This document shows positions 2,753-26,769 of a stretch of 32,205 nt of DNA, piece after piece. The DNA is taken from contig JAKLKD010000045.1 in the NCBI GenBank assembly GCA_023150845.1, positions 3,113 through 35,317 on the forward strand, read 5' to 3'. Both the position numbers and the translations under genes were made by a program. This DNA comes from Myxococcota bacterium (GTDB taxonomy: Bacteria; Myxococcota_A; UBA796; CAJQPC01). A model generated the notes under the pieces. It was not told the origin of the DNA, did not search any database, and saw only the letters and a list, made by a program, of their open reading frames with translations. Every line of letters starts with the position of its first letter. Positions within the stretch are counted from its first letter, which is position 1.

Positions 2753-3181
2753 TCAGCGCATCACGGAGCGCTTCTCGTCGAGCTTGGCCGCGCCCTCATC
2801 GAGGCGCGCGGTGAGCTTGTCGAGGGTCTCCTGCAGCGCGACCTCGCTCGGGCGGCCCATGGCCTCGCGCACGAGGCCGAAGCGGTACTCAAGCTCCGTG
2901 GCCAGGCGGGGGTCTACGTCACGGCGAATGAGGGGCTCAAGCTCGGGCAAGAACGAGCCGCGCCGCACGGCGTCGACCTCGGCCTTCGCGCCCTCTTTGT
3001 CGCCGGAGCGCCAGCGCCGCATCGCCTCGTCGAGGCCGGCCTTCACGGTGAGCGCGCGCTGGGCCCAGAGGCCCTCAGTGTAGACCGACGCCGCCGCCGG
3101 GAGCACCGGAGGCTCCTCAGCGGGATCAGCGGGCGCAGGCGGGGCCCCGCTGCAGGACCAGAGCACCAGGATCCACAGCAT
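2753..3181 (-). CDS. Small lipoprotein with an alpha-helical, FTR1/EfeO-like extracytoplasmic domain (tentative)
   Basis: The 142-residue product starts MLWILVLWSC, a very short signal with a lipobox at Cys10. This start is chosen because longer versions of the frame would run into the upstream gene that ends at 3223. A Pro/Ala-rich linker follows, then a predicted helical domain rich in Arg, Glu and Leu. The stretch around VDAVRRGSFLPELEPLIRR and the later ELEYRFGLVREAM recalls the periplasmic helical domain found at the N-terminus of bacterial FTR1-type iron permeases (DAYF-x-FE-xLEP ... ELE-xxF-xxLR). No permease membrane segment is present, so if the likeness is real this is a stand-alone domain. 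It lies 41 bp downstream of two paralogous envelope genes on the same strand. Iron handling is speculative. Confidence 0.75.
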   Translation of the reverse strand: MLWILVLWSCSGAPPAPADPAEEPPVLPAAASVYTEGLWAQRALTVKAGLDEAMRRWRSGDKEGAKAEVDAVRRGSFLPELEPLIRRDVDPRLATELEYRFGLVREAMGRPSEVALQETLDKLTARLDEGAAKLDEKRSVMR

Positions 3182-26391: not shown

Positions 26392-26420
26392 TTGTGCGCC
26401 CACGATCGTTGAGGTAGAGT
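26392..26420 (+). promoter_or_regulatory. Putative promoter of the structured non-coding RNA
   Basis: TTGTGC (26392-26397) and TAGAGT (26415-26420) are spaced 17 bp, giving a predicted start near 26427, just before the base-paired 5' end of the candidate RNA at 26432. Match quality is modest (3 of 6 and 4 of 6). Confidence 0.35.
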
Positions 26421-26552
26421 TCCCGAGTCTTTGGCAATGGACTGTGAGGTTCTGCTGGTCTGGCTCGGTGCTCTGCACCAGGGCGGCGTTTCGCCGTCTG
26501 AGCGCCTTCTTCCGCAAGCTTCACAAGGAAGGCTGTTCCAGAATCCGCTGAT

Positions 26553-26636
26553 CGGCGTAGGGAGCCCTAATCGACGGCGGCCTGGGACAACCCCGCCGGT
26601 CGTGGTTCCGCACGTCGATTAGGGCTCCCTACGCCG
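26553..26636. repeat. 24-bp perfect inverted repeat with 36-nt loop
   Basis: The arms 26553-26576 and 26613-26636 are perfect reverse complements and contain GTAGGGAGCCCTAATCGACG. The loop can form a small GCGG/CCGC sub-hairpin. The arms extend outward as two further 8-bp stems. A perfect stem of this length in non-coding DNA implies selection on structure or recent origin. Confidence 0.9.
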
Positions 26637-26703
26637 GCGGATTCAGTGAGCCTTCCATGTCCCTGGTCTTGTAGCTGACCGCCTCACTGTCCATGCCAGA
26701 AAC

Positions 26704-26732
26704 AGCCGCCCCTCACCGGGCGGCTTTTTTTT
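26704..26732 (+). terminator. Strong rho-independent terminator closing the non-coding RNA region
   Basis: The stem AGCCGCCC / GGGCGGCT (26704-26711 with 26718-26725) has a 6-nt loop and is followed by eight T residues. No plus-strand protein gene lies upstream, so it must end a transcript that starts inside 26.3-26.7 kb. Confidence 0.92.
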
Positions 26733-26769
26733 GCCTCGCGGACGCCCTCGGGGGTCGATGTCCGCACTT

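Follow-up and report, generated by a model that had tools for sequence, protein, structure and literature searches.

Retrons are described as compact loci in which the template RNA lies beside its reverse transcriptase (RT), and detection pipelines search there. The locus studied here raised the question of what a structured RNA with retron-like organization is when that neighbor is missing. The window (the whole 32,205-nt stretch of DNA that was analyzed; positions 3113 to 35317 of contig C10) came from a draft Myxococcota genome with 444 contigs (G000), and it contained no RT, unlike a textbook retron locus with its dedicated RT in the same place. An earlier note on this DNA had recorded the RT-free window and offered three readings: a retron RNA that lacks a neighboring RT and is served in trans, a relic, or long-hairpin RNA of a new class.

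Folding of positions 26400-26740 gave -187.9 kcal/mol vs. -131.6 ± 5.8 kcal/mol for dinucleotide shuffles (z = -9.7; 0 of 100 shuffles as stable), which was far beyond chance. The parts described earlier were all located: paired ends (26430-26449 with 26682-26702), two small 5′ hairpins (26467-26479 and 26482-26498, the second with the UUU loop), 24 perfect pairs in the long stem (exact inverted repeat 26553-26576/26613-26636, 24/24 pairs), and a strong terminator (26704-26732). The opposite strand displayed a fold of similar stability, as expected from the long inverted repeat, and the strand of the RNA was assigned from the terminator and the homologues, which fix the direction. The features were as follows:

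26392..26420, + strand: candidate promoter TTGTGC-N17-TAGAGT, read by eye, with a predicted start near 26427
26427..26732, + strand: msr-msd RNA gene, terminator included (fold z = -9.7; covariance model match)
26430..26449, + strand: a1, 5′ arm of the outer stem, pairing with a2
26457..26464, + strand: GGUCUGGC, counterpart of GGUCUAGC in relatives (alignment A2), with G26463 as candidate 2′-OH priming (branching) guanosine
26467..26479, + strand: possible msr hairpin GGUGC-UCU-GCACC, read from the sequence and common to Singulisphaera and G168 units
26482..26498, + strand: msr hairpin GGCGGCG-UUU-CGCCGUC (helix 1 of A4: 100% of cells paired, double changes in 2/7 pairs)
26522..26661, + strand: msd long hairpin with conserved base CACAAGGAAGGCU.../...AGCCUUCCAUGUC (A4 helices 2-4: double compensatory changes in 41/48 pairs)
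26553..26576, + strand: variable msd stem arm 1, 24 nt (perfect inverted repeat; in relatives, the sequence varies among copies of one genome)
26577..26612, + strand: msd apical region GCGGCCUGGGACAACCCCGCCGGUCGUGGUUCCGCA, conserved across HEAT-class units
26613..26636, + strand: variable msd stem arm 2, on the same basis as arm 1
26665..26675, + strand: GGUCUUGUAGC just 5′ of a2, conserved as GGUCUAGCAGUAGC in relatives; reverse transcription would be expected to start in or near here
26682..26702, + strand: a2, 3′ arm of the outer stem, complementary to a1
26704..26732, + strand: intrinsic terminator (8-bp GC stem plus U8), also kept in the sister species

Positions 26400-26426 were 93% identical to the sister species vs. 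69% immediately upstream, and the RNA probably has its own promoter; the candidate listed above fell below the pass mark in a consensus scan (weak by consensus). The possible hairpin 26467-26479 was partly paired elsewhere in the predicted minimum-energy fold. The UUU loop had been taken as a likeness to Ec86; relatives displayed UUG, UAG, AUG, and others, so that the loop was unconserved and the likeness was coincidental. Contrary to the statement that a clear branching-G context was lacking, homology placed a candidate at UGGC 26461-26464. TAGC is the usual priming motif and UAGC the commonest context (PMC6868368); most relatives, cis units included, carried UAGC after a1, and the window and its sister species carried UGGC at the aligned place with the G and C kept, a variant absent from those listed in PMC6868368.

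No Rfam family matched the window at the gathering score, and the sole low-E matches of a permissive scan were animal microRNA precursors, far under their cut-offs and attributable to the long hairpin. 6S RNA, which had been named as a possible better match, was rejected, being found neither at the gathering score nor among the permissive matches.

A nucleotide search identified a 98% copy in the sister species G001 (matching Myxococcota MAG.430, JAKLKE01) and diverged copies of the RNA in two genomes from another family. A four-unit tandem array was found in G059 at the adjoining ends of two contigs: L021 7786-8881 and L022 1-600, both on the minus strand, each unit having its own a1/a2 and stem, and the contigs overlapping within one unit. 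These units had common 5′ and 3′ segments plus apical loop, and the stem of 22-28 nt was unlike in each, yet complementary. Two covariance models were used, R1 from the window RNA plus relatives and R2 from 37 units; the model match to the window covered 26457-26678 with 211.5 bits, the window being a member of the model's own training set. Compensatory changes in relatives, whose absence the earlier note held to count against the RNA, were massive: double compensatory changes affected 27/68 predicted pairs in a seven-unit comparison, and the 37-unit alignment displayed standard pairs in 96.3% of pair cells, double changes in 47/61 pairs, and a covariation score of 0.658 (vs. 0.149 ± 0.007 shuffled and at most 0.115 slid), the slid controls weighing more than the raw paired percentage because the alignment was fitted to the model. 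The arms a1 and a2 were complementary in the window, as in almost every relative, though their sequences were entirely different among relatives.

The family of the RNA was identified from its neighbors in other genomes. Directly downstream of the G059 array and the single unit of G055 lay genes for HEAT1, for a HEAT/WD40 protein, and for a protein of 610-626 aa; in G059 the RT came next. PADLOC profiles assigned these partner genes to HEAT-ARM_XIII, SWIM_XIII, and RT_XIII, which together make up a type XIII retron. Related units were located directly upstream of type XIII operons (HEAT-ARM, HEAT-ARM/WD40, SWIM, RT), and in other genomes R1 and R2 matched units adjacent to HEAT1 or RT, so that RNA homologues were present in cis with type XIII genes. 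These homologues, together with the massive covariation, bore out the msr-msd identity of the window RNA.

The same four-gene operon was harbored by contig C372 of G000 (RT_XIII 521 bits, SWIM_XIII 592 bits, HEAT-ARM_XIII 1810 bits, and HEAT1 1144 bits), with the full type XIII complement of two HEAT-ARM proteins, SWIM, and RT. The C372 RT was full length with intact YADD and was the sole RVT_1 match in the G000 genome; a dedicated retron RT was present in the same genome, on a contig other than that of the RT-free window. No msr-msd of this RNA family was found in the C372 operon, even with search filters off, and both models detected one sense-strand unit genome-wide in G000, that of the window. 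The stretch of C372 upstream of HEAT1 (about 18.6-21 kb, L035), where an msr-msd would be expected, presumably carries helicase-like, DUF790-like, and small-ORF genes. C10 and C372 had no common end sequence at which to join; in whichever way these draft contigs join, a distance of about 11 kb or more separates the RNA from the RT, and the RNA is not part of the RT operon. The XRE gene next to the RNA was dropped as a partner candidate, as it accompanied the RNA in the sister species only.

Placement of the units relative to type XIII operons was compared across genomes (G121 and G218, with the RNA or HEAT1 at a contig end, were left out of the count): (i) linked units: in G055, G059, and three Planctomycetes, among them the closed Singulisphaera acidiphila genome, the unit preceded HEAT1 by 75-220 bp (75-90 bp in G055 and G059 and about 200 bp in Singulisphaera); 0.9-1.6 kb upstream of HEAT1 in G222 (HEAT1 on the RNA's own contig and SWIM on another) and G109; and G269, counted as linked with its unit immediately downstream of SWIM-RT on one short contig; (ii) units firmly in trans: two in G365, located 104 kb and 107 kb into a 1.55-Mb contig, with HEAT1 on a 784-kb contig; G245, G117, and G242, with unit and HEAT1 deep inside separate contigs; a weaker unit in G207, 112 kb from HEAT1 on one contig; and four units over four contigs in G260, 3/4 of them well inside; and (iii) other operon-separated units: G168 (two), G133 (three in tandem), G198, G328, G120, and G374 (about 15 kb downstream of RT), a group to which the window unit of G000 was also assigned. 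The G260 units (C95, C29, C32, and C2; L138 and L165-L167) constituted a divergent class, two of them having orthologues in G328.

SWIM_XIII was present in 67/379 Myxococcota genomes, and the RNA (models R1 plus R2) in 38/379, 37 of these 38 also carrying SWIM_XIII (Fisher p about 1e-31). The exception, G277, was a 65% complete assembly with a weak RNA match (G277:C3:57340-57530), and its lack of a detected SWIM_XIII probably reflects assembly incompleteness. RNA distances (variable stem left out) followed those of the RT (Mantel r 0.81) and of SWIM (Mantel r 0.79), with 0/10,000 permutations reaching these values, a correlation that could partly mirror common species history. Long hairpins are common to many RNAs, and the window unit stands alone, as would suit a structured RNA of a different kind (6S-like, antisense, or sRNA scaffold) whose presence in genomes with type XIII retrons is incidental. 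We regard this as very improbable: the closest relatives lay 75-220 bp from HEAT1 in five genomes, units of the WGR subtype lay between SWIM and RT, and the co-occurrence and the missing 6S match speak against it as well.

Given the cis type XIII homologues, the co-occurrence, and a single RT without an msr-msd of its own, the reading as an RT-less retron RNA served in trans was the best of those offered earlier. With a probability of about 0.88, the region encodes a stand-alone msr-msd RNA belonging to a type XIII retron of the HEAT type, an RNA that would be bound in trans by the C372 RT, primed at the GGUCUGGC guanosine, and copied into an msDNA restraining the HEAT/SWIM effectors. The idea of a new class of long-hairpin RNA failed in that this is a retron RNA, while the detached, multi-copy, stem-variable organization is indeed unusual.

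Compared with the sister species, the window had 94% identity in the RNA region and 98% in the RNA core, vs. 60-69% for the intergenic flanks and 84% for the neighboring XRE coding sequence. In the congeners G260 and G328, two dispersed units were orthologous, one being 91.5% identical vs. 72-76% for its flanks, and these orthologous units retained their own stem via compensatory changes on both arms. Detached units are thus under RNA-level selection and probably in use. The same comparisons disfavor the relic reading, by which the RNA would be a decayed or retrotransposed partial template copy, out of use. Its detachment from the RT, UGGC in place of UAGC, and precedent titles mentioning partial or retrotransposed copies (among the references of PMC6868368) would fit such a copy; however, the a1-msr-msd-a2-terminator order was complete, the core was conserved far above its flanks, the G260/G328 units behaved likewise, and the C372 operon would then be left without any template, so that we judge a decayed copy improbable.

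Stem arms were unlike both among the copies of one genome and from one genome to another (39 distinct arms in the set compared), each with a complementary partner arm, and copies in one genome kept their flanks while their msd stems were unrelated yet fully complementary. Read most simply, the duplex is what counts, and the stem sequence is free or chosen per copy. A motif GTACCC/GGGTAC common to the stems was considered and judged unconvincing, at most a lead, occurring in 9/39 distinct arms vs. a shuffle maximum of 10 and hence within the shuffle range.

Dispersed copies with variable stems resemble cassettes, which raised the possibility of a MITE-like inverted-repeat mobile element, or of a variable stem acting as a phage-targeting guide. 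G000, however, contained a single copy; the window stem had no match elsewhere in its own genome at up to 3 mismatches, the conserved RNA segment was absent from viral contigs, and the 15-nt core of the stem matched in 3 viral contigs only, the match extending by at most a base or so. The guide idea was accordingly rejected for the window stem, the one stem tested, which had no second genome match and no meaningful viral matches; RNA-level selection on the units is a further point against this pair of explanations, and we hold them to be hardly credible.

As retron templates, detached units with unlike long hairpins occurred in up to four copies per related genome; therefore, one type XIII RT probably makes several different DNA molecules. 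Somewhat short of even odds, and put forward tentatively, HEAT-type XIII may be a multi-template system in which dispersed or tandem msr-msd genes supply a single RT and effector set in trans; their conserved flanks would bind the RT, and each msd would yield a different 22-30 bp DNA duplex, these duplexes acting as interchangeable baits or sensors that widen the range of detectable phage activities. The bait or sensor role of several stems per system is speculation.

Retron complexes generally hold a toxic effector until phage infection. In characterized retrons, a1 and a2 pair, the RT recognizes the msr, the 2′-OH of a guanosine after a1 primes synthesis, and the msd becomes a DNA hairpin (PMC6868368). 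By analogy, the window RNA would be transcribed and bound in trans by the C372 type XIII RT, which may start synthesis at the GGUCUGGC guanosine and reverse-transcribe the msd. The product would be a branched RNA-DNA molecule with a long DNA hairpin of about 160 nt, as suggested by Mx162; the msDNA-RT complex would then restrain the HEAT/SWIM effectors until disturbed by phage infection, providing defense. The span from the candidate G to a2 (about 220 nt) fits the size of Mx162 (241-nt transcript).

Among known systems, the type XIII HEAT-ARM subtype (PADLOC) had the same RNA class, with partner genes in the same genome and RNA distances paralleling those of RT and SWIM, but the window RNA lies outside the operon, as a putative transcription unit of its own elsewhere in the genome. 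The long msd of Retron-Mxa1 (Mx162) from Myxococcus xanthus (241-nt transcript, 162-nt msd; PMC6868368) is, by its description, of similar size, and an RT of the myxobacterial group with N-terminal extension is a further likeness; Mx162 is presented as a classic retron. By its description, Retron-Nex1 (Ne160) from Nannocystis exedens resembles the present case in being a set of RT-less msr-msd units in a myxobacterium: the passages of PMC6868368 covered here, citing Lampson and Rice 1997, describe repeated msr-msd with no RT within a kilobase, interpreted as duplication by a distant RT or possible retrotransposition. Unlike the window RNA, Nex1 is assigned to no effector system in those passages. 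In the part of the literature covered, no paper assigned RT-less units to type XIII, showed recurrent trans placement, or noted stem exchange. For the RT-less Nannocystis repeats of 1997, the finding would supply a mechanism as well as a broader setting. With templates regularly detached and multiplied here, such retrons would be scored incomplete and their RNAs taken for unexplained hairpins; several msDNAs per RT would also bear on what the msd stem does, the stem being the strongest difference among copies.

WGR-subtype type XIII retrons (G006, G298, G273, and a Lewinella MAG) contained a shorter unit of about 190 nt, in cis between SWIM and RT, with the same core architecture as the window RNA and recognized by the same covariance model. 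The Lewinella MAG displayed two tandem msr-msd units with unlike stem tips there (L042 5463-5872). In G365 and G117, where both subtypes were present, the WGR operon was accompanied by a cis unit of its own, and the units that lay detached belonged to the HEAT class. A third unit class, with a CACAAGGUAGGCU base, was observed at G368:C21:12711, 14464, and 14757 (L117, L124, and L127) and in G354:C68 (L119), several copies lying near the SWIM_XIII gene in one genome.
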